10,000 nucleotides of DNA, taken from Magnetospirillum sp. GTDB lineage: Bacteria > Pseudomonadota > Alphaproteobacteria > Rhodospirillales > Magnetospirillaceae. The stretch spans positions 1 to 10,000 of the forward strand of contig JAIWOG010000206.1 in the NCBI GenBank assembly GCA_020217035.1. Direction: 5' to 3'. Below the pieces are notes generated by a model that was given only the letters and a program-made list of their open reading frames with translations, did not search any database and was not told the origin of the DNA. Shown here piece after piece: positions 1-10,000 of the stretch; the first letter of the stretch is position 1, and each line of letters begins with the position of its first letter. The translations under genes and the position numbers were made by a program.

Positions 1-2
1 GC

Positions 3-134
3 GATCCCTTCGACGACGACGTGGAAGTGGTGCGCAAGGTGATGGTCATCGACAAGGCCGGCGCCTGTATCGGCTGTTCGTCGTGCGAAACCGTCTGCGG
101 CACCAATGCCCAGAAGCATTCGGCGGCGGCCTGA
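3..134 (+). CDS. fdxB: Nif-specific ferredoxin III, C-terminal part (5' end outside window)
   Basis: Reading frame 3 is open from the window edge to the TGA at 132-134 and gives the last 43 residues of a small ferredoxin. They include an acidic stretch (DPFDDDVEVV), the bridge KVMVIDKAGA, and a cluster motif C-x2-C-x2-C-x3-C (CIGCSSCETVC) followed by GTNAQKH. An acidic linker followed by a closing Cys cluster near the C-terminus is the pattern of nif-specific ferredoxin III (FdxB), a low-potential electron carrier in nitrogen fixation. In many proteobacteria it is encoded just upstream of nifQ, as here. The final Cys is followed by Gly rather than the Pro common in bacterial ferredoxins. The N-terminal cluster-binding half cannot be seen, so another small nif ferredoxin is not excluded. 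Confidence 0.75.
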   Translation, partial: DPFDDDVEVVRKVMVIDKAGACIGCSSCETVCGTNAQKHSAAA

Positions 135-138
135 AGCC

Positions 139-744
139 ATGTTGGCCGGCGAACTCTATCGCCTGCTGATGGCGGGTGGCGACCGGGACGGCGACTTCAC
201 CCGTCACGTCCTGGCCTGCGCCCTGGCCCTGGCCCATGGCGAGCGCGGGCGCACGCTCGACGCCGCCCTGGGCCTGTCGGCCGCCGACGTCACCGCCTTG
301 CTGCTGACCCATTTCCCCCATGCCGCCGGCTTCGTCGCCGCCCGCCTGACCTATGACGGCCAAGGCGACCGGCCGGCCAGCCTGGAAGAACCCGACCTGC
401 GGCGGTTGCTGTTGGACAATCGCGGCACCCATGGCCCGGAAGGCGCGTGGCTGGCCCACATCATCGCCCGGCGGTCGCTGGAATCCAACCATCTGTGGCA
501 GGATCTGGGTCTGCGCGACCGCGCCGACCTGTCGCGGCTGATGCGTGATTTCTTCACACCGCTGGCCCTGGCCAACATGCGCGACATGAAGTGGAAGAAG
601 TTCTTTTACCGCACGCTGTGCCAAAACGAAGGCGTGCTGATCTGCAAAAGCCCCATCTGCGACAATTGCGACGACTTCGCCCATTGCTTCGGCGCCGAGG
701 ACGGCCATTCGCTGCTGGCACAGAACGCCCGCGCCAGGGCGTGA
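139..744 (+). CDS. nifQ: NifQ, molybdenum donor for FeMo-cofactor synthesis
   Basis: This 201-residue protein carries the NifQ signature near its C-terminus: MKWKKFFYRTLC followed by C169-x4-C174-x2-C177-x5-C183. In studied NifQ proteins these cysteines hold a Mo-Fe-S cluster that supplies molybdenum to the NifEN/NifH assembly machinery in the cytoplasm. An extra Cys (C161) precedes the motif. Length and architecture (helical N-terminal two thirds, Cys cluster at the end) fit the family. I chose the ATG at 139, four bases after the ferredoxin stop. An in-frame ATG at 106 would overlap the ferredoxin gene and add an atypical Arg-rich leader. The Shine-Dalgarno sequence is weak, so translation is probably coupled to fdxB. 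The stop codon lies in the loop of a possible terminator hairpin. Confidence 0.92.
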   Translation: MLAGELYRLLMAGGDRDGDFTRHVLACALALAHGERGRTLDAALGLSAADVTALLLTHFPHAAGFVAARLTYDGQGDRPASLEEPDLRRLLLDNRGTHGPEGAWLAHIIARRSLESNHLWQDLGLRDRADLSRLMRDFFTPLALANMRDMKWKKFFYRTLCQNEGVLICKSPICDNCDDFAHCFGAEDGHSLLAQNARARA

Positions 745-760
745 CGCCCCTGCCCTTTTT
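735..760 (+). terminator. Possible rho-independent terminator after nifQ
   Basis: GGGCG (737-741) pairs with CGCCC (745-749) around the loop TGA, which is the nifQ stop codon. Flanking CAG and CTG could add pairs around a one-base bulge. A run of five T follows at 756-760, though a short C-rich gap separates it from the stem. The short stem and the gap make this a moderate candidate. It would separate the fdxB-nifQ transcript from the sigma-54 unit downstream. Confidence 0.4.
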
Positions 761-775
761 GTCGGCATCCCGACA
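760..775 (+). promoter_or_regulatory. NifA upstream activator sequence (TGT-N10-ACA)
   Basis: TGT at 760-762 and ACA at 773-775 are separated by exactly ten bases (CGGCATCCCG), the classical NifA binding site. Its centre is about 84 bases upstream of the GC of the -12 element at 851-852, roughly -96 relative to the expected start, within the usual range for NifA acting on sigma-54 holoenzyme by looping. Further GACA half-site-like repeats follow at 782-785 and 791-794. Confidence 0.75.
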
Positions 776-837
776 ATCCCCGACAATTGCGACATTGCCC
801 ATTTTGACGGCACCAGCTTTTCCGCCATTCCGGTGTT

Positions 838-853
838 TGGCATCGGCCTTGCA
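838..853 (+). promoter_or_regulatory. Sigma-54 (RpoN) -24/-12 promoter for iscA-nifV
   Basis: TGGCAT-CGGCC-TTGCA matches the sigma-54 consensus TGGCAC-N5-TTGCA with a single deviation. The invariant GG (839-840) and GC (851-852) are ten bases apart, as required. Transcription should begin near 864, leaving a leader of about 33 bases before the start codon at 897. Together with the NifA site this predicts nitrogen-fixation-dependent expression of the downstream pair. Confidence 0.85.
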
Positions 854-896
854 ACTTGTCGGTCAGACTGTTTCGTTTCCGTGAAGGAGACCCGCC

Positions 897-1208
897 ATGC
901 TGACCATGACCGACCGTGCCGTTTCCGTGTTGAGCACGCTGTGCGCCGAAGAAGCGTTGGGTTTGCGCATCTCCGTCAACAACAGCGGCTGTTCCGGCAT
1001 CCAATACGGCATGAGCCTGGAAGAACAACCGACACAGGGTGACGAAGTGCTGACCTTCGGTGACTTGAAGGTCTATGTGGACGCCCCTTCCGCCATGTGG
1101 CTGACCGGCGTCAACGTCGATTACGTGGAAGGCGAGGAAGGGGCCGGCTTCCAGTTCGACAACCCGGCCGCCGCCGGCAAGTGCTCGTGCTCGGGCAAAT
1201 GCGGTTGA
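897..1208 (+). CDS. IscA/HesB-type Fe-S cluster carrier, nif-associated
   Basis: This 103-residue A-type iron-sulfur carrier has the three family cysteines: C32 in [12 protein letters not shown] and C96 and C98 in the C-terminal [10 protein letters not shown] further cysteine, C102, sits four residues later. A-type carriers receive Fe-S clusters or iron from scaffolds and pass them to apo-proteins in the cytoplasm. Nif-linked copies (often called IscA-nif or HesB) are thought to serve nitrogenase maturation. The ATG at 897 has a good Shine-Dalgarno sequence (AAGGAG, 884-889), better placed than for the alternative ATG at 906. The gene is first behind a NifA/sigma-54 promoter and is followed after five bases by nifV, so the two form one unit. 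The family is clear; the exact target protein is inferred from context. Confidence 0.9.
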
Positions 1209-1213
1209 TCGCC

Positions 1214-2341
1214 ATGAGCGGACTGGTGATCAACGACACCACGCTCCGCGACGGCGAGCAGACCGCAGGCGTCGCCTTTCGCCTGGACGAAAAGCTGGCC
1301 ATCGCCCGCGCCCTGGATGCGGCCCATGTGCAGGAAATCGAAGTCGGCATCCCGGCCATGGGTGAAGACGAAGTCGCCAGCATCAACGCGGTGGCCGCCC
1401 TGGGACTGAAGGCCCGGCTGATCGCCTGGTGCCGCATGCATGACGACGACCTGGCCGCCGCCAAGGCGTGCCGGGTCGACACCGTCAACCTGTCCATCCC
1501 GGTTTCCGATTTGCAACTGGCGGCCAAGCTGGGCAAGGGCCGCGACTGGGCGCTGGATCACATCGTCACCATGGTGGCCAAGGCCCGCGACCTGGGATAC
1601 GACGTGCTGATCGGCGGCGAGGATTCGTCGCGTGCCGACCTGGACTTCCTGCTGCGTGTGGTGGAAACCTGCCAAAAGGCCGGCGCCCAGCGGTTCCGCT
1701 TCGCCGACACGCTGGGGATCATGGACCCCTTCGCCACCCACGCCGCTTTCACCCGCTTACGGGCCGCCTGCGATCTGGAACTGGAAATCCACGCCCATGA
1801 CGATTTGGGCCTGGCCACCGCCAATTCCCTGGCGGCGCTGAAAGGCGGCGCCAGCCATGTCAGCACCACGGTGAACGGCCTGGGCGAACGGGCCGGCAAC
1901 GCCCCGCTGGAAGAGGTGGTGGTGGCAGCCGAACATCTGTATGGCCTGGATTCGGGCGTGGTGAAAACCCAGTTGGCCGCCGTGTCGCACTTGGTGGCCG
2001 AAGCCTCGGGCCGGCCGGTGCCTGTGAACAAAAGCATCGTCGGAGATGCCATCTTCACCCATGAATCGGGCATCCATGTCAGTGGCCTGTTGCGCGACCG
2101 CCGGACCTACGAAGCCCTGGACCCGCGCGAGCTGGGCCGCGCCCACCGGGTGGTTCTGGGCAAGCATTCCGGCCTGACCTCGGTCCTGCATGCCTTCCGC
2201 GAGATCGGAATCGAACTGGACCCCATCCAGGGGCGTGCGATCCTGAGCCAGGTCCGCCGCTTCGCCGGCGAGACCAAGCGCCCCCCCACCATCGACGAGC
2301 TTCGCCGCATCCAGGCGCTCACGGCGGCCACCTTCAACTAG
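1214..2341 (+). CDS. nifV: Homocitrate synthase NifV
   Basis: This 375-residue enzyme of the HMGL/isopropylmalate synthase superfamily condenses acetyl-CoA with 2-oxoglutarate to give R-homocitrate, the organic ligand of FeMo-co. Visible motifs are DTTLRDGEQ (8-16) at the start of the TIM barrel, the divalent-metal ligands H193 and H195 in HAHDDLG, the loop [14 protein letters not shown] from about 221, and [11 protein letters not shown] in the C-terminal part. The length is that of NifV rather than of the longer LeuA, which carries a regulatory domain. Its place after an IscA-like gene, under a sigma-54 promoter and beside nifQ, supports NifV over lysine-pathway homocitrate synthase. The ATG at 1214 was chosen because the product then begins directly with the conserved barrel strand; an upstream start would overlap the preceding gene. 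No clear Shine-Dalgarno is seen, which suggests coupling. Confidence 0.95.
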
Positions 2342-2363
2342 AACGCCAATCAGCCATGCACGA

Positions 2364-2377
2364 TTGACCAGCGTCAA
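2364..2377 (+). promoter_or_regulatory. FNR/FixK-type binding site upstream of feoA
   Basis: TTGAC-CAGC-GTCAA is a perfect inverted repeat that fits the FNR/FixK/Anr consensus TTGAY-N4-RTCAA. One more pair (A2363/T2378) extends it. Its centre (2370.5) lies just upstream of the -35-like TTGACC at 2382, about 41-47 bases before the likely transcription start, the position expected of an activator touching RNA polymerase. It predicts induction of feoABC and the downstream genes at low oxygen, when Fe(II) is available. The regulator is inferred from the site alone. Confidence 0.6.
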
Positions 2378-2381
2378 TTGT

Positions 2382-2410
2382 TTGACCGTAACTTTCTTGT
2401 GGAATACGAT
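2382..2410 (+). promoter_or_regulatory. Sigma-70 promoter candidate for the feo-ATPase operon
   Basis: TTGACC (2382-2387) and TACGAT (2405-2410) are separated by 17 bases. Each matches the sigma-70 consensus at four or more positions. An alternative -10, TGGAAT at 2400-2405, would put the FNR-like box at exactly -41.5. The 122-base gap from 2342 to 2463 holds this promoter and the palindrome, but I see no clear terminator for nifV. Confidence 0.5.
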
Positions 2411-2463
2411 CCGAATTCGCGAGTGGTTATCACCTTCATTCTCAGGGCAGGGGCCGCCATCAC

Positions 2464-2706
2464 ATGTCCAGCATCTTAAACCGCGTGCAAGACCTGAAGC
2501 CGGGCGACACCGCCCGGGTGGTGCGCTTGTCCAAGGGGGACCGGGGTTACCGTCAACGCCTGCTGGCCATGGGGATGACGCCGGGCGTGGTGTTTTCCGT
2601 CACCCGCGTCGCCCCCTTCGGCGACCCCATCGAGATCAACGTCCGCAACTTCACCCTGACGCTGCGCAAGATCGAAGCCGACATCCTGGAAATCGAGAGG
2701 GTCTGA
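2464..2706 (+). CDS. feoA: FeoA, ferrous iron transport accessory protein
   Basis: This 80-residue protein folds as an SH3-like domain that partners FeoB at the cytoplasmic face of the inner membrane. The family hallmarks are present: RLLAMGMTPG (32-41) and PFGDPIEINVRNFTLTLRK (51-69), with a closing strand that ends in EIERV. Length is typical of stand-alone FeoA. The ATG at 2464 follows the weak purine stretch CAGGGGC (2448-2454). It is the first gene after the FNR-like box and promoter, and its stop is two bases before the feoB start, the canonical feoA-feoB arrangement. Confidence 0.95.
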   Translation: MSSILNRVQDLKPGDTARVVRLSKGDRGYRQRLLAMGMTPGVVFSVTRVAPFGDPIEINVRNFTLTLRKIEADILEIERV

Positions 2707-2708
2707 GC

Positions 2709-5084
2709 ATGTCCAACGTCATCGCGGTCGTCGGCAACCCCAATTGCGGCAAAACCACCCTGTTCAATGCCCTGACCGGTTCGACCCAAAAGGTCGGCAA
2801 CTGGCCCGGCGTCACCGTGGAAAAGAAGGTCGGCCAGTTCCGCTATCAGGGTCAGAGCTATGATCTGGTCGATCTGCCCGGCATTTACATGATCGGCGGC
2901 TATTCCGCCGGGTCCCAGGACGAACGGGTGGCGCGTGATTACATCTTGTCGGGTGAGCCCCAGGTGGTGGTCAACATCCTTGACGCCTTCAACCTGGAAC
3001 GCAATCTGTACCTGACCTGCCAATTGCTGGAAATGCGGGTGCCGGTGGTCGTCGCGCTGAACATGGTCGACCTGGCCAAGAAGGTCGGCATCCAGATCGA
3101 TTGCGCCGCGCTTGCCAAGGTGCTTGATTGTCCGGTGGTCCCCATCGTCGCCAACCGCGGCACCGGTGTGGACGCGCTGAAACAGGCCATGGCCTTCGCC
3201 GTGGCCAATCCCCGTGTGCCCGATTCCCAACCCGACCATGCCGCTTCGGTCAAGGCGGCCATCGACATCCTGGCGCCGCGCATGGAACAGATCGCCGGCT
3301 CGGCCCGGGTCGACGCCCGCTGGGCGGCCTTGCGCCTGCTGGAAGGCGATTCCTTCGTCGAAAGCCTGGCCGCCGGCAAGTTGGGTTGCGACTTGCAGAT
3401 CCAGGTGGAAAACATCGAAAAAGAAGGCGGCGACGATCCCGACATCGTCATCGCCGACGGCCGTTACCGTTTTGTCGGCGAAATGATGGCCGCCTGCTTC
3501 CATCAGCCGCGCAAGGTTTCCCTGGCGCTGACCCGGCGCATCGACAAGGTGGTGCTGAACCGCTTTTTGGGCGTGCCGGTGTTCCTGCTGGCCATGTATC
3601 TGATGTTCCTGTTCACCATCAATATCGGCGGCGCCTTCATCGACTTCTTCGACCAGGCGGTGGGCGCCATCATGGTGGACGGCCTGGGCGAGGCGCTGAC
3701 CGCCATCGGCCTGCCGGAAGGATTGGTGGTGATCGCCAAGGGCTTCGGGTCCGGCGTGCAGACGGTGTCCACCTTCATCCCGATCATCGCCTGCCTGTTC
3801 CTGTTCCTGTCCTTCCTGGAGGATTCGGGCTATATGGCGCGCGCTGCCTTCGTCATGGACCGCGCCATGCGGGCCATCGGCCTGCCCGGCAAGTCGTTCG
3901 TGCCGCTGATCGTCGGTTTCGGCTGCAACGTGCCGGCCATCATGGCCACCCGCACCCTGGAAAACCGCCGCGACCGCATCCTGACCGCGCTGATGGCGCC
4001 GTTCATGTCGTGCGGGGCCCGGCTGCCGGTCTTCGCCCTGTTCGCCGCCGCCTTCTTCCCGGTCAACGGCCAGAACATCGTCTTCGGCCTGTATCTGGTG
4101 GGCCTGGGTTTCGCGGTGCTGACCGGCCTGATCCTGAAGCACACGCTGTTGCAGGGCGAAGTGTCGCATTTCGTCATGGAATTGCCGCCCTACCACCTGC
4201 CGACCCTGCGCACCGTGGTGCTGCAAGCCTGGCAGCGCCTGCGCGAATTCATCTTCAAGGCCGGCCAGGTGATCGTTCCCATCGTCATGGTGCTGTCCTT
4301 CTTCAGCGCTTTGGGCACCGACGGCAGCTTCGGCAAGGAAGACAGCCGTGATTCGGTGCTGGCCGCCGCCAGCCAAAGCATCGTCCCGGTGTTCAAGCCC
4401 ATGGGCCTGACCGAGGACAACTGGCCGGCCGCCGTCGGCCTGTTCACCGGCATCTTCGCCAAGGAAGCGGTGGTCGGCACGCTGAACACCCTTTATGCCC
4501 AAGCCGCCGAACAGGACGCCGCCGCTGCGGCCGAAACCGCCCCCCCGGCGGAAGGGGTGGAAGGCGAAGCCGTCGTCGCCGAAGCGGAAGCCACCGAGAC
4601 CCTGGGCGGAAAATTGATGGCCGCCCTGGCCACCATCCCCGAGAACCTGGCCGGAATCGTCGATTCCCTGGGTGACCCCCTGGGCCTGGACGTCAGCTAC
4701 GTGTCCGATTCGGGCGCGGCGGCCGAGGAACTGGAAGTGGGCGACGGCACTTTCGGTGCCATGGTCGCCCGTTTCACCGGGGTGTCGGGCGCCATGGCCT
4801 ACATGGTGCTGATCCTGCTGTACACGCCTTGCGTCGCGGCCCTGGGCGCCATCCGCCACGAGACCAGCATGGGCTGGACCCTGTTCGCCACCGGCTGGAC
4901 CACCATGATCGGCTACACCGCGTCGGTCAGCGTCTATCAGGCGGCCAATTTCGCCACCGATCCGGCGACCGCCACCTTGTGGCTGTCCTTGTGCGGCGGC
5001 ACCCTGGTCATGCTGGTGGCCGCCATGTGGATGGTCGGCCGCGCCCAGGCCCGCCGTCTGGCGGCGACCATGCCGGCGGAATAA
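2709..5084 (+). CDS. feoB: FeoB, GTPase-coupled ferrous iron permease
   Basis: This 791-residue inner-membrane Fe(II) importer has the cytoplasmic G domain first: G1 GNPNCGKT (9-16), G3 DLPG (55-58), G4 NMVD (118-121). A helical guanine-dissociation-inhibitor-like region runs to about 265, followed by the polytopic membrane part with two Gate-like segments (around SGYMARAAFVMDR and KEAVVGTLNTLYA). As in the E. coli-type protein, a long soluble insertion lies before the last membrane helices. Here it begins with an Ala/Glu-rich low-complexity stretch encoded at about 4500-4610. Total length is close to the roughly 770 residues of enterobacterial FeoB. The ATG at 2709 has GAGAGG upstream. The frame stays open upstream as far as a TTG at 2364, but that extension would overlap feoA and carries no FeoB sequence. 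Confidence 0.97.
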   Translation: MSNVIAVVGNPNCGKTTLFNALTGSTQKVGNWPGVTVEKKVGQFRYQGQSYDLVDLPGIYMIGGYSAGSQDERVARDYILSGEPQVVVNILDAFNLERNLYLTCQLLEMRVPVVVALNMVDLAKKVGIQIDCAALAKVLDCPVVPIVANRGTGVDALKQAMAFAVANPRVPDSQPDHAASVKAAIDILAPRMEQIAGSARVDARWAALRLLEGDSFVESLAAGKLGCDLQIQVENIEKEGGDDPDIVIADGRYRFVGEMMAACFHQPRKVSLALTRRIDKVVLNRFLGVPVFLLAMYLMFLFTINIGGAFIDFFDQAVGAIMVDGLGEALTAIGLPEGLVVIAKGFGSGVQTVSTFIPIIACLFLFLSFLEDSGYMARAAFVMDRAMRAIGLPGKSFVPLIVGFGCNVPAIMATRTLENRRDRILTALMAPFMSCGARLPVFALFAAAFFPVNGQNIVFGLYLVGLGFAVLTGLILKHTLLQGEVSHFVMELPPYHLPTLRTVVLQAWQRLREFIFKAGQVIVPIVMVLSFFSALGTDGSFGKEDSRDSVLAAASQSIVPVFKPMGLTEDNWPAAVGLFTGIFAKEAVVGTLNTLYAQAAEQDAAAAAETAPPAEGVEGEAVVAEAEATETLGGKLMAALATIPENLAGIVDSLGDPLGLDVSYVSDSGAAAEELEVGDGTFGAMVARFTGVSGAMAYMVLILLYTPCVAALGAIRHETSMGWTLFATGWTTMIGYTASVSVYQAANFATDPATATLWLSLCGGTLVMLVAAMWMVGRAQARRLAATMPAE

Positions 5085-5094
5085 GGGGGCGGCC

Positions 5095-5322
5095 ATGACC
5101 CTGTCCGAACTGAAAGCCTACATGATCGACCGCAAGCGGGCGTCGATGACCGAGATCACCATGCATTTCGACACCCCGGCCAGCGCCGTGCAACCCATGC
5201 TGGACCAATGGATCGCCAAGGGAAAGCTGCGCAAGCTGGACATCATGGGCGGTTGCGGCAAGGCGGGCGGCGGCTGCGCCTGCAAGGAAAAGCCCTCGGA
5301 CATCTTCGAATGGACCCTGTGA
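5095..5322 (+). CDS. feoC: FeoC-like winged-helix protein with cysteine cluster
   Basis: This 75-residue protein begins with a winged-helix-like fold (TLSELKAYMIDRKRASMTEI, then a hydrophobic recognition-helix region to about residue 50). A Gly/Cys loop follows with C54-x6-C61-x-C63. FeoC proteins bind the FeoB N-domain and carry an oxygen-sensitive Fe-S cluster in such a loop, and may stabilise FeoB at low oxygen. Enterobacterial FeoC usually has four cysteines; only three are present here, so the cluster type may differ. The ATG at 5095 has a strong Shine-Dalgarno sequence (AAGGGGG, 5083-5089) overlapping the feoB stop. The next gene overlaps the 3' end by about 13 bases, which ties it to the downstream block. 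Confidence 0.85.
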   Translation: MTLSELKAYMIDRKRASMTEITMHFDTPASAVQPMLDQWIAKGKLRKLDIMGGCGKAGGGCACKEKPSDIFEWTL

Positions 5323-5768
5323 CCGTCTTCGCCTCGGTGCTGCCGGGCCGCATCCGGCTGCGCCACCCGATCTTGCGCGATGCGGCCGTGCACGCTGACC
5401 TGTCCGCACGCTTGGGCGAAATGGTTCGCGTGCAGGGCAACCCGGCCATCGGTTCGCTACTGCTGACCTTCGATCCCGCTGAAAGCGGCATGGAAGGCCG
5501 TGTCCGCGCCATCGTGGCGGAAGTCCTTCCCGCCGAACCGGCGGCGAGGACGTCTGTCCCCCATGTGGGCAAGCGCATCGCCCTGAAGCGTCCGAAAACC
5601 GCCAAGCAGGAGTTGAACCGGGCCGCCAAGATCGGCGCCGTCGTCAGCATGGCGGTGTCGCTGGCCGCGCTCGGCACCAGCAAGAAACTGCACGCCCAGG
5701 CTGGTTTCGTCTTCGTCGCCATGATGCTGGCCCACATGGCGGTGCATTGGCGCCGCACCTTCAAGTAA
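5310..5768 (+). CDS. HMA-like domain membrane protein (first of three LPGR proteins)
   Basis: This protein of about 152 residues has an HMA-like ferredoxin-fold domain at residues 5-75 that begins with VLPGRIRLRH, a motif standing where classical metallochaperones have their CxxC loop. There is no cysteine in the protein. A basic linker follows (GKRIALKRPKTAKQ), then two probable membrane helices (107-122 and 129-146) and a basic tail. This layout is seen in small proteins encoded beside P1B-6-type ATPases in ferrosome-like clusters; I infer a role in sorting or assembling an iron compartment. The start is uncertain: ATG 5310 overlaps feoC by 13 bases, while an in-frame GTG at 5319 would give the classic GTGA stop-start overlap. 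Function is not established by sequence alone. Confidence 0.8.
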   Translation: MDPVTVFASVLPGRIRLRHPILRDAAVHADLSARLGEMVRVQGNPAIGSLLLTFDPAESGMEGRVRAIVAEVLPAEPAARTSVPHVGKRIALKRPKTAKQELNRAAKIGAVVSMAVSLAALGTSKKLHAQAGFVFVAMMLAHMAVHWRRTFK

Positions 5769-5781
5769 CCGGAGTTGTCCC

Positions 5782-6108
5782 TTGCCCTCCGCCGAGCCCT
5801 CCTTGTTGCGCTTCCTGAACGCATTAAGCGTCGCCCACCACGTTCCTGGGCGCATCCGCCTGAAGCTGTCCGCCCCCGTGGGCGGTGAATTGCTGGCCTT
5901 GGCCGACCAGGCCAAGTCATTCGGGACGGCGTTTTCCGCCATGGCCGGCATTCGTGCCGTCAGCCTGAACCCCTTGGCGAAAAGCTGCACCATCGAATAC
6001 GACACCAAGATCATCCCCGCCACGGCCTGGACCGGCCTGTTGTCGGGCCAAGCCACCCCTGGCAGCGAAGCCTTGCGTCAACGCCTGGTTGCCGCCGTAC
6101 AAAGTTGA
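5782..6108 (+). CDS. Small HMA-like domain protein (second LPGR-type copy)
   Basis: This 108-residue protein starts with TTG at 5782, preceded by GGAG (5771-5774); no better start is seen. It is almost entirely one HMA-like domain. AHHVPGRIRLKL (18-29) parallels the motif of the gene before it, and the second half has GIRAVSLNPLAKSCTIEYD, which matches the end of the HMA-like domain of the downstream ATPase (NAAARSLVIEYD). The single cysteine (C69) is not in a metal-binding CxxC. No convincing membrane helix is present, so it may be a soluble or peripheral partner of the ATPase. It lies 13 bases after the previous gene and 19 before the next, as part of one transcript. The precise function is unknown. 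Confidence 0.8.
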   Translation: MPSAEPSLLRFLNALSVAHHVPGRIRLKLSAPVGGELLALADQAKSFGTAFSAMAGIRAVSLNPLAKSCTIEYDTKIIPATAWTGLLSGQATPGSEALRQRLVAAVQS

Positions 6109-6127
6109 CCCAAGAAAGGAGCCCGTC

Positions 6128-6502
6128 ATGTTGCCGTTTCTCACCTTCGCCGGCGGCATCATCGCCGGTATCGTCGGCGTCAAGCTGCTGAAGCAGGTCA
6201 AGACCCCCGAAAGCCTGGAATCCCTGGGCGACAAGGCCCGCAGCGGCCTGGACAAGGCGGGCGCCGGCCTGCGCGACGCCACCGTCAGCGGTCTGTCGGC
6301 CATCGAGAAGTCGACCGCCAAGATGCGCGGCAAGCTGAGCCCCGAGCCGCAAGCCGAAGTCCCGCCGGCCGCGCCGGCCGCCACCACCACCGCCTTGCCG
6401 GTGGCCAAGAAGGCAGCGCCGCGCCGCAAGGTGGCCGCCAAGAAAAAGGCCGCCCCCGCCGCCGCCACCCCGGTCGATCCCAAGCCCGAGGGCGAATCGT
6501 GA
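6128..6502 (+). CDS. Small membrane-anchored protein with amphipathic helix and basic Lys/Ala tail
   Basis: I do not recognise this 124-residue protein as a named family, although it recalls DUF5132/YtxH-like proteins near P1B ATPases. Visible parts are a Gly-rich N-terminal membrane helix (FLTFAGGIIAGIVGVKLL, 4-21); a helix-forming stretch (26-70) with regularly spaced charged residues, likely amphipathic; a Pro/Ala linker (71-95); and a histone-H1-like basic stretch (AKKAAPRRKVAAKKKAAP, 93-110) before an acidic end. The ATG at 6128 has an excellent Shine-Dalgarno sequence (AAAGGAG, 6115-6121). The stop overlaps the GTG of the next gene. Anchor, amphipathic helix and polybasic tail could suit a membrane-shaping or polyphosphate-binding component of an organelle; this is inference. 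Confidence 0.75.
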   Translation: MLPFLTFAGGIIAGIVGVKLLKQVKTPESLESLGDKARSGLDKAGAGLRDATVSGLSAIEKSTAKMRGKLSPEPQAEVPPAAPAATTTALPVAKKAAPRRKVAAKKKAAPAAATPVDPKPEGES

Positions 6503-6825
6503 AGAAACGCAAGGCCAAGGCGGCGGCGCTGGCCCCGGCCGAACTGGCCGGCAACTTCACCCGCGGCATGGTCGCCACCGGCTTGCTGGCGGCCATCCAG
6601 GACCGCTGGACCGCGGACAAGCCGTCCAACCGCAAGGTGCTGCGTCTGGCCCTGCAAGGTGGTGCCGCCCTGGCGTCCGGCATCGCCACCGCCGAATCCC
6701 TGCGCCGGGCCGATGTCGCCCGCGCCGTGCTGGCCCTGGCCGGCGGCGCCGTGAGTGTCATGGCGGTTGAAATGTTGTTGAACCCATCCCCCCGTCAGCC
6801 GGCCCAGGAGGTAGAAATTGGCTAG
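6499..6825 (+). CDS. Small hydrophobic protein of unknown function
   Basis: This 108-residue protein starts with GTG at 6499, in a four-base GTGA overlap with the previous stop, and so is probably translationally coupled. I do not recognise the family. It has a basic N-terminus ([15 protein letters not shown]), hydrophobic stretches at about 23-33 and 48-64 ([18 protein letters not shown]), and a clearer helix at 73-94 ([22 protein letters not shown]). It ends in a short polar tail. The Gly/Ala-rich helices resemble glycine-zipper membrane segments. Its place between the basic-tail protein and the YtxH-like protein, just ahead of the P1B ATPase, suggests a structural or accessory role in the same membrane system. 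Confidence 0.72.
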
Positions 6826-7150
6826 GAAGAACAAGCAGAAGAAGAACAAGGGCATCAAGCGCCGCGACTTGGAAAAGATGATGGCCATGCAGGCGGGACA
6901 GGCGCAGAACCAGGGCTTCCTGGGCGGTCTGGGAAACCTGCTGCCCGCCGGCCGCACCGAACAGTTCCTGCTGGGTCTGGCCTTGGGTGGCGTCGCCGCC
7001 TATGTGCTCTCGGACGAGGAAATCCGCGGCAAGCTGTTCAAGGGCGCCATCAAGGCCTATGCCGGCCTGGCCGGTTCCCTGGCCGAAATGAAAGAGCAGA
7101 TGGCCGATCTTCAAGCCGAGGTTCAGGCCGAGCAGAACGGCCTGATATGA
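6818..7150 (+). CDS. YtxH-like small membrane protein
   Basis: This 110-residue protein starts with TTG at 6818, inside the end of the previous gene, with a strong Shine-Dalgarno sequence (AGGAGGT, 6805-6811) that fixes the start. The N-terminus is strongly basic ([15 protein letters not shown]), followed by a Met/Gln-rich segment, a Gly-rich turn (GFLGGLGNLLPAGRTEQF), one membrane helix (LLGLALGGVAAYVLS, 51-65), and a C-terminal helix with probable coiled-coil character (86-104, LAEMKEQMADLQAEVQAEQ). A single helix with Gly motifs followed by a charged helical tail is the style of YtxH-domain proteins. The stop overlaps the ATPase start as ATGA, so the two are translated together. The role is inferred as an ATPase or organelle accessory. 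Confidence 0.75.
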   Translation: MARKNKQKKNKGIKRRDLEKMMAMQAGQAQNQGFLGGLGNLLPAGRTEQFLLGLALGGVAAYVLSDEEIRGKLFKGAIKAYAGLAGSLAEMKEQMADLQAEVQAEQNGLI

Positions 7151-9228
7151 GCGCCGAAACCTGGCTGCGTTCGGTCGTGCTGGCACACAGCCTGCCCGGC
7201 CGTCTGCGCCTGCGCTATCGCCCCCATCCCCAGGCCCCGGCCGATGCCGGCGCCCTGGAAGGGGTCGCCAAATTGCTGGACGGCGTGGTCTCGGCCCGCG
7301 CCAACGCCGCCGCGCGGTCGCTGGTGATCGAATACGATGTTGATCGCACCGATGCCGCCACCCTGGTCGCCACCTTGGCCGGCCTGCCCCTGGCCGAGGC
7401 GACGCATGGCAAGCCCGCCGCCGATGACGGCAAGGCCGAGGTCGCCGCCGCCCTGGCGGTGCTGTTGGGCACCAGCGCTTTGCCCCAGGGTTTGAAGCTG
7501 CCGGTCAGCCTGACCGCCGCCTTGCCTTTGTTGCGTCACGCCGTCGACGATTACCGGGAAAACGGCATCACCAGCCACGTGCTGGAAGCCATGGCGGTGT
7601 CCATTTCCCTGGCGCGGTCCGACTATACCGCCGCCAACACCACCACTTTCATGCTGGCGCTGGGCGAGTACATGGAAAATTCCATCGCGCGGCGCTCGGA
7701 CGACCTACTGAAACATTTGCTGCGCCCCACCAGCGACCATGTGTGGGTGGTGAAAGACGGGGTCGAAGTGCAGATCCCCGCCGCCGAGGTCCAGGTGGGC
7801 GACCACGTGGTGGTGGGTGCCGGTGTGGTCATACCGGTGGACGGCACCGTTTTGTCGGGCGAAGGCATCGTCAACGAAGCGGCGATGACCGGCGAAAGCG
7901 TCTCGGTGGCCAAGACGCGCGGCGCCGGCGTGCTGTCGGGCACCCTGATCGAGGAAGGCCGCCTGACCATTTACGCCGAGCAGGTGGGCAACCGCACCGC
8001 CGCCGCCCGCATCGCCGATTACGTCGAACAATCGCTGACCGCCAAGTCCGACGCCCAGATCGAGGCCGCCAGGCTGGCCGACCAGCTGGTGCCCACCGTG
8101 TTGAAGGTGGCCGCCGCCGCCGCCCTGCTGAACGGCCTGCCCGCCGCCGCCTCGGTGCTTCAAGCCGATTATTCCTGTGCGCTCAAGCTGGCCACCCCGG
8201 TGGCCTTCAAGTCGGCCATGTTCGACGCCGGACAGGCCGGCATCCTGGTCAAGGGCGCCACCGCCCTGGAGCGTCTGGCCAGCGCCGACACCTTCATCTT
8301 CGACAAGACCGGCACGCTGACCACCGGCATGCTGGAAGTCACCGATTCCATCGCCTTCGACCAGTCGTTCAGCGCCGACGACCTGATCTGCCTGGCGGCG
8401 TCGGTGGAAGAACATTACTTCCATCCCCTGGCCCTGGCGGTGGTCAACGCCGCCAAGGCCACCCACAACCACCATTTCGACCATTCCGAGGTGCAGTTCA
8501 TCGTCGCCCACGGCGTCGCCAGCATCATCGACGGGCAGCGGGTGGTGGTGGGGTCGCGCCATTTCGTCGCCGAGGACGAAGGCATCGACGTCGCCCCGTA
8601 CCAGGACGTCATCGACCAATTGTACCAGGACGGCAAGACCCTGTTGTTCATCGGCTATGGCGGCAAGCTGCTGGGCATCCTGGGCCTGAAGGACACCATT
8701 CGCCCGACCAGCGCGGCGACCATCGCGCGGCTGCGCCGGGCCGGGGTCAAGCGCATCTGGCTGCTGACCGGCGACCATGCCGACCGCGCCGCCGAACTGG
8801 CCGCGGAACTGGGGCTGGACGGCTTCCACGCCCAGTTGCTGCCCCAGGACAAGGCCCGCATCATCGCCGAATTGAACGAGCAAGGCGCCCGCATCGCCTT
8901 TGTCGGCGACGGCATCAACGACGCCCCCGCCCTGGCCGGCGCCCAGGTGGGCATCGCCATGCAGAAGGGCGCCGACATCGCGCGGCTGACCGCCGACATC
9001 GCGCTGTTGGAAGACAACATCGACCGGGTCGCCGACGCCAAGGAACTGGCCAACGCCGCCATGGCCCGCATCGCCAGCAATTACCGCCTGACCGTGGGAT
9101 TGAATACCGGCATCCTGGGTCTGGCCGCCTTGGGGGCGCTGTCGCCCATCACCACCGCCATCCTGCACAACGGCACCACCATCGGCATCTTGTTGAACGC
9201 GCTGCGTCGGATGGTGCCGAAAGGGTGA
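7147..9228 (+). CDS. P1B-type metal ATPase with HMA-like N-terminus, FezB/P1B-6-like
   Basis: This 693-residue P-type ATPase has the catalytic Asp in DKTGTLT (D386), the actuator TGES (248-251), the HP motif specific to P1B pumps (H426-P427) and the hinge GDGINDAP (587-594). The transmembrane metal-site motif is DYSCALKLATP with S343-C344-A345, not the CPC/CPx of Cu or Zn pumps. The N-terminus holds an HMA-like domain with SLPGRLRLRY (15-24) and no CxxC. Membrane segments fall at about 96-135, 140-180, 315-365 and 640-690. These traits, and the company of feoABC and small HMA-like proteins, fit the P1B-6 group that includes FezB of ferrosomes, which probably moves iron into a membrane compartment. 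Export of iron or manganese from the cell is the alternative. The ATG overlaps the previous stop. I withhold a gene symbol because the identity rests on motifs and context. Confidence 0.9.
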   Translation: MSAETWLRSVVLAHSLPGRLRLRYRPHPQAPADAGALEGVAKLLDGVVSARANAAARSLVIEYDVDRTDAATLVATLAGLPLAEATHGKPAADDGKAEVAAALAVLLGTSALPQGLKLPVSLTAALPLLRHAVDDYRENGITSHVLEAMAVSISLARSDYTAANTTTFMLALGEYMENSIARRSDDLLKHLLRPTSDHVWVVKDGVEVQIPAAEVQVGDHVVVGAGVVIPVDGTVLSGEGIVNEAAMTGESVSVAKTRGAGVLSGTLIEEGRLTIYAEQVGNRTAAARIADYVEQSLTAKSDAQIEAARLADQLVPTVLKVAAAAALLNGLPAAASVLQADYSCALKLATPVAFKSAMFDAGQAGILVKGATALERLASADTFIFDKTGTLTTGMLEVTDSIAFDQSFSADDLICLAASVEEHYFHPLALAVVNAAKATHNHHFDHSEVQFIVAHGVASIIDGQRVVVGSRHFVAEDEGIDVAPYQDVIDQLYQDGKTLLFIGYGGKLLGILGLKDTIRPTSAATIARLRRAGVKRIWLLTGDHADRAAELAAELGLDGFHAQLLPQDKARIIAELNEQGARIAFVGDGINDAPALAGAQVGIAMQKGADIARLTADIALLEDNIDRVADAKELANAAMARIASNYRLTVGLNTGILGLAALGALSPITTAILHNGTTIGILLNALRRMVPKG

Positions 9229-9273
9229 TTTTCAGGCATGATCGCTCCCACAGATGGTTTCATTGGGGGAAAC

Positions 9274-9684
9274 ATGCGCCTTGCCATCATCCTTGCGTCG
9301 TCGTTGCTGTTTTTCAACGCGGCGCTGGCCGCCGACGCCTATCCGACCCGGCCGGTCCTGAAGACGTCGAAGACGGTGGTGGACGAAACCATCGTCTATC
9401 CCACCACCGGCCCGGCCCAGGTCAAGGCCGACATCGTCACCATCGCACCGGGCGCCGAAACCGTGTTCCACCGTCACGGCGTGCCCATGTTCGCCTATAT
9501 CCTGAAAGGCACGGTGGTGGTGGATTACGGCGACAAAGGCAAGAAGACCTTCACCGCCGGCCAGGGCATGGTGGAGGCCATGACCATCACCCATCGCGGC
9601 ACCAATCCCGGCCCGGAACCGGTTGAAATCCTGGCCGTCTACATGGGGGCCGAAGGGTCTGAGAACGTCATTCCCATGAAATAG
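9274..9684 (+). CDS. Exported small cupin-domain protein
   Basis: This 136-residue protein has a clear signal peptide (MRLAIILASSLLFFNAALA, cleavage probably near residue 19-20), so the mature form is likely periplasmic. The rest is a single cupin barrel. Motif 1 is PGAETVFHRHGVPMFAYILKG, with the metal-type HxH present but the usual Glu position occupied by Met. Motif 2 is TAGQGMVEAMTITHRGTNPG, followed by the strand LAVYMGAEG. The substrate is unknown. The ATG at 9274 is preceded by GGGGGA (9265-9270); an in-frame ATG at 9238 would push the signal peptide inward. It lies 45 bases after the ATPase gene with no obvious terminator between, so read-through from the iron operon is possible, but nothing links the function to iron. 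Confidence 0.85.
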   Translation: MRLAIILASSLLFFNAALAADAYPTRPVLKTSKTVVDETIVYPTTGPAQVKADIVTIAPGAETVFHRHGVPMFAYILKGTVVVDYGDKGKKTFTAGQGMVEAMTITHRGTNPGPEPVEILAVYMGAEGSENVIPMK

Positions 9685-9713
9685 GGCGGTGCCCCCCTAC
9701 CCTTGGCGGGTGT

Positions 9714-9731
9714 GGCGCGGCTGGCCGCGCC
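9714..9731 (+). terminator. GC-rich hairpin between cupin and HAD genes
   Basis: GGCGCGG (9714-9720) and CCGCGCC (9725-9731) form a perfect seven-pair stem with the loop CTGG. No T run follows (only TTGCTT), so this is a weak intrinsic terminator or a transcript-end stabiliser for the upstream cupin gene. It ends 17 bases before the next start codon. Confidence 0.4.
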
Positions 9732-9748
9732 TTGCTTAGACTGGGGGC

Positions 9749-10000
9749 ATGAACAAGCAAGCCCTGATCTTCGACGTCGACGGCACCTTGGCGGAAACCG
9801 AGGAAGCCCACCGCTTGGCCTTCAACCAAACCTTCGCCGAATTCGGCCTGGATTGGGTGTGGGACCAGACCCTTTACGGCAAGTTGCTGAAAGTGTCGGG
9901 GGGTAAGGAACGCATCCGCGCCTATGTCCAGGACCAGCATCCGGACATGCTGGTCCCCGGCCTGGATTTGCGCATCGCCACCTTGCATCAGCGCAAGACG
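9749..10000 (+). CDS. HAD-superfamily phosphatase, CbbY-like (3' end outside window)
   Basis: The first 84 residues of a haloacid dehalogenase-type hydrolase are visible. The catalytic motif I is [18 protein letters not shown] with nucleophile D9 and acid/base D11. A cap-domain start follows, with [28 protein letters not shown]. The stretch [10 protein letters not shown]...FN and the GGKERI segment are typical of CbbY-like sugar-phosphate phosphatases, which in autotrophs remove misfire products of Rubisco such as xylulose-1,5-bisphosphate. The rest, including motifs II to IV, is beyond the window, so phosphoglycolate phosphatase or beta-phosphoglucomutase-like members remain possible. The ATG at 9749 is forced by an in-frame TAG at 9737-9739. 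It has no properly spaced Shine-Dalgarno. Confidence 0.85.

Follow-up and report, generated by a model that had tools for sequence, protein, structure and literature searches.

A stretch of 10,000 nucleotides (nt) from Magnetospirillum sp. (assembly GCA_020217035.1, contig JAIWOG010000206.1, positions 1-10,000, forward strand; hereafter the window) carries, directly behind the ferrous iron uptake genes feoABC, six genes that can with good confidence be read as a complete fez (ferrosome) operon joined to the end of feoABC. One transcript made under anoxic conditions would then provide both the importer of Fe(II) and a membrane compartment for storing iron. The cluster is very probably a fez operon because of the clade and membrane motif of its ATPase, the FezC build of one small protein, and the number and order of its genes. 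A ferrosome-type cluster had been proposed from the DNA letters alone (the original prediction), and this proposal is supported by the separate ATPase clade, the six-gene count and the FezC-like protein, the iron-phosphate granules supplied by Feo that it also foresaw being a putative trait. The genes concerned are as follows.

2464-2706, + strand: feoA (Pfam FeoA 71.7 bits, above cut-off)
2709-5084, + strand: feoB, ferrous iron importer (Pfam FeoB_N 224.7 bits, above cut-off, with Gate and FeoB_C)
5095-5322, + strand: feoC (Pfam FeoC 76 bits, above cut-off)
5310-5768, + strand: g1, FezC-like, with an HMA-fold N-terminus, PGRIR (5343-5357), a two-helix hairpin, His128 (5691-5693) and His142 (5733-5735)
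5782-6108, + strand: g2, single HMA-type domain (HMA_2 30.8 bits, cut-off 30), HHVPGRIRLK, no CxxC, TTG start
6128-6502, + strand: g3, N-terminal hydrophobic helix and Lys/Ala/Pro-rich basic tail, conserved in the family
6499-6825, + strand: g4, small membrane protein, conserved in the family
6818-7150, + strand: g5, basic N-terminus, one membrane helix and a C-terminal helix, DUF5132/YtxH-like below cut-off
7147-9228, + strand: fezB, P1B-type ATPase, with PGRLR (7195-7209), DYSCALK (8167-8187) and DKTGT (8302-8316)

As had been predicted, the six genes form one run directly behind feoABC on the same strand, abutting or overlapping; the description of the cluster as fused to feoABC holds for one overlapping operon and fails for a protein fusion. 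The genes from feoA onward, including the fez six, very likely make up a single transcription unit on the layout of the sequence, because the fez junctions overlap or nearly touch (feoC and g1 share 13 nt, the next two junctions are gaps of 13 and 19 nt, and the last three are overlaps of 4, 8 and 4 nt). The listed open reading frame (ORF) of g3 begins at TTG 6089, and the ATG at 6128 is preceded by the ribosome-site-like AAAGGAG.

The ATPase and its phylogeny

The ATPase FezB is assigned by NCBIfam to the heavy-metal P-type ATPases (TIGR01525, 473.7 bits against a cut-off of 346.25), and its transmembrane metal site reads DYSCALKLATP where exporters carry CPC, a motif that was also checked in relatives and that bears out the predicted non-CPx P1B ATPase. 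In one paper the metal site in the sixth membrane helix of P1B-1, P1B-2 and P1B-4 pumps is given as CPC, CPH, SPC or PCP (PMC4932525), none of which is found in the YSCALK of the window ATPase. The N-terminal HMA-like domain has PGR at the expected CxxC position. An AlphaFold2 model of FezB (mean predicted local distance difference test score 78.6) places eight long helices in the arrangement of P1B pumps, and the structures it matches best are those of Cu and Zn pumps of the P1B type.

Trees of P1B ATPases were built with 116 rows (FastTree) and with 86 and 43 rows (both under a mixture model). Two of 117 ATPase hits were dropped for short coverage and three truncated sequences were removed before the 116-row tree; for the 86-row tree 38 of the 116 rows were removed by hand (redundancy, long branches) and eight protein rows added, and the rows of the 43-row tree were picked by hand. 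The background rows came partly from a genome scan for the near-universal FDKTGTLT beside LAASVEEH, which returns a scatter of P1B ATPases among the matches listed and not the closest fez loci. Rows with the motif [YF][SAC]C[AP][LIV][KR], here called the SCA clade, are set apart from all others by a single branch in the 86-row tree (43 rows; Shimodaira-Hasegawa-like approximate likelihood ratio test, SH-aLRT, 98) and again in the 43-row tree (21 rows; ultrafast bootstrap 99, SH-aLRT 97, and 100% of 200 bootstrap trees). The 46 labelled motif rows of the 116-row FastTree needed two changes because a DFCCALK row among them had been given a different label. Firm grouping with Zn, Cu or Co exporters, which the original prediction had named as its refutation, did not occur, and the reading of the window ATPase as a Zn or Cu exporter was rejected on its tree position and membrane motif.

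Inside the SCA clade are ATPases of four Shewanella species (P0214, P0248, P0251, P0260), a Desulfovibrionaceae metagenome-assembled genome (MAG; Mailhella, L034), gut Bacillota, methanogens, Rhodobacter, Rhodomicrobium, Vibrio and Azospirillum; outside it are E. coli CopA and ZntA, the pMOL30 heavy-metal ATPase and other CPC rows (15 in all, 43-row tree). In the 86-row tree the window ATPase falls in a sub-clade with Azospirillum, Aromatoleum, Aeromonas and Magnetospirillum, separate from that of the other Shewanella and Vibrio. Two ATPase ORFs from S. meliloti pSymA formed long branches outside the clade in the 116-row tree and were left out of the later trees. Neither S. putrefaciens nor R. 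palustris is among the 120 protein-search matches listed, which name four other Shewanella, and a protein search from the Aeromonas copy has no Shewanella among its 120 matches listed. By identity to the window FezB, the 60 plasmid records listed fall into two groups with a gap between them, 12 at 40.6-77.3% and the other 48 at no more than 37.2%. Through literature that ties FezB to P1B-6, the SCA clade would correspond to P1B-6, a subfamily listed with Fe(II) as substrate in one published table (PMC7558416) and described in an older paper as then being without biochemical examination (PMC4932525). In a sister clade of ATPases with PGR-type HMA-like domains (L031, L033, L035, L124; cyanobacteria, Chloroflexi and an alphaproteobacterium) SCALK is replaced by TGIR or SGIR, and HMA-like partner genes adjoin two of its members, L033 and L124.

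Small proteins and likeness to known fez operons

The protein g1 combines an HMA domain with a DUF4405-like two-histidine membrane hairpin, which is the build of FezC. Its model has an HMA-type fold followed by two helices (95-123 and 125-151), and His128 and His142 are invariant in all ten aligned rows. The same build, with the pattern KxHxxxG...H, stands beside FezB in three of the 11 loci asked, those of Hahella (L007), a MAG titled Deltaproteobacteria (L024) and Azospirillum (L127). A Foldseek search with g1 gave no match at E<=0.001. Haem binding is reported for a FezC of Desulfurispirillum (PMC10979944). The two predicted HMA-like proteins without CxxC were recovered as g1 and g2, with PGR(I/L)R instead, and PGR without CxxC is common to the HMA-like domains of FezB and its partner proteins; the HHVPGRIRLK motif of g2 is conserved in relatives. 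Three further small membrane or basic proteins had been expected and are present as g3, g4 and g5. The g5 profile also matches ORFs that directly precede FezB in gammaproteobacterial and Campylobacterota loci, and one row of the g4 alignment (L112) is plainly a wrong-frame ORF.

The closest likeness is to the six-gene fez operons of R. palustris (RPA2333-2338) and S. putrefaciens, which Grant et al. reportedly described in 2022 and whose ATPase we take to be a P1B of the non-CPC kind. The gene count, a FezC-like HMA/cytochrome protein and small membrane proteins are shared, the likeness as an operon being one of gene number and compactness. Unlike these operons, the window set is appended to feoABC, behind nifV and under a box of FNR type. 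The fez clusters of D. magneticus and C. difficile, which are presumably smaller, likely share the FezB clade, the SCA clade taking in a Desulfovibrionaceae MAG and many ATPases of gut Bacillota; in loci of this Desulfovibrionaceae/gut Bacillota sub-clade the small-gene profiles mostly found no counterpart of g2-g4. For R. palustris CGA009, the six fez genes RPA2333-2338 are reported in one article (PMC12016538).

Conservation, genomic setting and promoter

A FezB of at least 67% identity occurs in 16 of the 80 genomes searched (its own included), and in a class-wide draw of 385 genomes only four, again counting its own, pass E 1e-95 for FezB. The fez set keeps its order in 15 close relatives, and tblastn recovered all six genes in 13 of these; at three further loci, L120-L122, there is no more than a distant ATPase. 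More FezB codons carry synonymous changes than amino-acid changes, 138 to 47 against genome G009 and 171 to 118 against G006 (raw counts, not dN/dS). Evolution is quicker in the small genes, as in g1 with 33 synonymous and 42 amino-acid-change codons against G009 (likewise raw counts, not dN/dS). Relatives with as little as about 32% protein identity still share the gene order and reading frames, and on this and the FezB codon counts the six-gene set is not a product of chance.

The fezB of G008 (L115, oriented 10902-12722 and 12721-12975) changes frame near residue 607 and so lies in two frames, possibly a decaying copy, with an IS630-type transposase ORF just downstream; a FezB-like match (43%) in another family of the same order has one internal TAG (G066:C46:8497-10329). 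A fez-like cluster on an Arcobacter plasmid (L128, 6684-10752) lies near TonB receptors, a ChaN-type lipoprotein gene and a Tn3 transposase, which hints at horizontal spread.

The wider order on the + strand is nifQ, a HesB/IscA-type gene, nifV, feoABC, the six fez genes and a cupin gene, the genes upstream of feoA having gone unmentioned in the original prediction. The flanking features are these.

106-744, + strand: nifQ, before the HesB/IscA-type gene and nifV
897-1208, + strand: HesB/IscA-type gene, which stands with nifV before feoA in G005, G006, G008, G009 and G012
1196-2341, + strand: nifV, homocitrate synthase (TIGR02660 517.2 bits, cut-off 462.9)
2364-2377, + strand: predicted FNR/FixK-type box TTGACCAGCGTCAA, matching TTGAY-N4-RTCAA
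2382-2410, + strand: sigma70-like promoter by eye, TTGACC, 17-nt spacer, TACGAT
9238-9684, + strand: exported cupin, start probably 9274

In six genomes (the window, G005, G006, G008, G009 and G012) nifV directly precedes feoABC. The fez six stand between feoC and the cupin gene in four of these, namely the window, G006, G009 and G012, and the feoC/g1 junction of the window recurs in the other three. In G005 and G008 the cupin gene directly follows feoC with no fez between, and fez lies elsewhere in the genome. A further genome, G004, has feoABC-fez with a looser feoC/g1 junction and with nifV on another contig. Because fez occupies the feoC-cupin slot in some congeners and lies elsewhere in G005 and G008, it is a self-contained movable module that, within a single genus, either entered a feo-cupin unit or was lost from it. 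The FezB sequences of G005 and G006 pair in the 86-row tree (SH-aLRT 88). The notion that the window type of FeoB always travels with fez was rejected, this FeoB being found also in G018, G029, G044 and G048, which have no FezB match at E 1e-80.

Judged from its place directly after feoC in G005 and G008, the cupin gene is part of the feo unit and not of fez. Its start is probably 9274 and not 9238, giving a signal-peptide-like start as in G005 and G008. In G005 (L132, about 4630-4675) a long inverted repeat seen by eye between feoC and the cupin gene may be an attenuator or terminator, and a degenerate version of it follows fezB in the window at about 9236-9280. The window's own genome has three ferritin-fold matches, and its nifH is in two pieces, both at contig ends.

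The box before feoA is the only TTGAY-N4-RTCAA palindrome in the window, with 0.03 expected by chance and at least one found in 6 of 200 shuffles, and is a predicted site consistent with a feo operon under FNR/FixK control. Its core is present in all six nifV-feoA gaps and the full palindrome in five (G009 is without the last base); the core also precedes the free-standing fez of G005, and the strict pattern is absent before the G008 fez and before the G004 feoA. Part of the promoter spacer, CTTTCTTGTGGAATA, is common to the window and the free-standing G005 fez promoter and occurs in G008 with one change, and by eye the window spacer is nearer to the promoters of the free-standing fez in G005 and G008 than to the feo promoters of these two genomes. 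The promoter logic is that of R. sphaeroides feoABC, which has a TTGAC-N4-xTCAA box and where FnrL binds TTGACgcggATCAA; unlike the window operon, R. sphaeroides feoABC is published without mention of fez genes in the part of the description available (PMC2908626). What is new would be the setting nifV-[FNR-type box]-feoABC-fez-cupin, membership in the fez family being itself ordinary. In the literature searched, a weak test since most subscription papers lay outside it and sources were available in part, neither a nif-feo-fez layout nor a link between fez and nif was found.

Proposed mechanism and competing explanations

In the mechanism proposed here, for which we infer iron as substrate, the direction of pumping, the vesicle and its mineral, FNR binding and haem, a regulator of FNR type would switch on the promoter before feoA and Fe2+ would enter the cytosol through FeoB. 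There g1, g2 and the N-terminus of FezB, as HMA proteins of the PGR type, may help to hand over or gate this iron, which FezB would pump into a membrane vesicle that g3, g4 and g5 may help to shape or anchor, and the FezC-like cytochrome g1 would control the redox state of iron at the vesicle membrane.

The fetched flanks contain feoA or feoB in 6 of 24 loci of the SCA clade and in 1 of the 56 P1B loci outside it (post hoc Fisher p 0.0025), a comparison of unequal flank totals (331.9 kilobases for the SCA clade and 787.2 kilobases for the others) that takes its loci from the matches listed in the FDKTGTLT/LAASVEEH scan, leaves out the window and its family, and groups loci by hand from the membrane motif. 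A Ruminococcus MAG (L019) has feoB just before the FezB region and a Clostridiales MAG (L020) has feoAB after it; an iron ABC importer adjoins the Azospirillum fez copy, and FeoA and TonB receptors adjoin that of Cereibacter. Among other relatives 20 of 44 listed flanking ORFs were scanned, giving one each of TonB-like, cation-efflux, rubrerythrin, sigma factor and di-haem peroxidase, and the remainder had no evident iron tie. The iron link of the clade is recurrent and, because neighbours in other relatives are mixed, not universal. A cation-diffusion-facilitator gene adjoins fezB convergently in G045 (L112, 13112-14191), and a rubrerythrin gene follows fezB in G013 (L117, 5859-6419).

Several observations weigh against the ferrosome reading. 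The trees are without the characterised FezB proteins of D. magneticus, R. palustris, S. putrefaciens and C. difficile, the link to them running through other Shewanella and the Mailhella MAG. The ATPase also exceeds the cut-off of the 'cadmium' subfamily model TIGR01512 (357.2 against 313.5), public records label its relatives as Zn or Mn/Zn transporters, and HMA_2 in FezB is below the Pfam cut-off, as are the HMA_2-like N-terminus (E 1.1e-4) and DUF4405 (E 0.0019) in g1. There is no Pfam match for g3 or g4, g4 was not matched by tblastn in L109 and L110 (a profile later found it in L109), and 8 of the 11 loci asked gave no match to the two-histidine pattern. Weak hits underlie two of the seven loci counted as having feo, namely L014 (feoA alone, E 1e-6) and the control L070 (E 8e-6). 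Control by Fur may exist, the best Fur-box match being weak (12 of 19 positions, with 21 of 300 shuffles as good). A strict FNR box precedes the cluster in one (L108) of 13 further loci without nifV upstream (L108-L119 and L127, of which L114 has almost no upstream DNA to inspect); because of this single occurrence the box is a property of the window-type operon and not of fez at large, and the idea that it is a general fez feature was rejected.

The ATPase might serve detoxification only, exporting excess Fe2+ (or Mn2+ or Zn2+) over the cell membrane while Feo is active. Small single-pass proteins (PacL) scaffold CtpC, and the small fez proteins would be scaffolds of this kind with no organelle involved. 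The nearest CPC-bearing rows in the 86-row tree include actinobacterial ATPases (L026, L028, L036) that we take to be CtpC-like, in line with the Mn/Zn-transporting names of relatives in database records. These ATPases, however, keep CPC and have no feo hit in their flanks, whereas the window ATPase belongs to a clade without CPC; its five small companion genes, a FezC-like cytochrome candidate among them, match operons reported to make ferrosomes, and a pump that undoes the work of an importer encoded in the same operon would presumably be pointless except for storage. Export without storage is accordingly judged improbable. Less credible still is a Zn, Cd or Cu resistance pump that lies next to feoABC by chance: the TIGR01512 score and the varied fez neighbourhoods of other relatives would fit it, but tree position and motif speak against it, feo linkage recurs in other phyla, and chance adjacency sits poorly with the 13-nt feoC overlap and with a junction that recurs in G006, G009 and G012 and, more loosely, in G004.

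A further proposal adds to the ferrosome operon rather than replacing it, namely that fez stands beside nif to buffer iron for nitrogenase cofactor assembly and is co-expressed in diazotrophy. An iscA-nifV pair directly before feoABC-fez in four genomes (the window, G006, G009 and G012) and before feoABC without fez in two more (G005 and G008) favours it, as does the 54- and 12-fold rise of Paenibacillus feoAB under N2 fixation reported in one study (PMC4774088). Against it, G004 has feoABC-fez without an adjacent nifV, no feo or nifV hit lies near fez in 11 of 15 fez-bearing relatives (the L114 stretch begins at g1), and with a separate FNR-type promoter before feoA co-transcription with nif is not needed, so that this supply role is possible and rather doubtful. 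Tentative, and less likely than not, is a composite picture of diazotrophic Magnetospirillaceae in which an import-and-store operon under an anaerobic FNR-type switch joins feoABC and fez on one transcript in the nif region, ferrosomes would act as an iron bank for nitrogenase, and fez would have slotted into or out of the feoC-cupin junction.

With feo and fez in one operon next to nif, Feo as the source of ferrosome iron and nitrogenase as its possible sink would both become open to test, and related genomes with fez inside or outside the feo operon would serve as matched natural controls. The Magnetospirillaceae are presumably the family of the model magnetosome makers, and a ferrosome system in what appears to be such a family may allow two iron organelles to be compared in related hosts.

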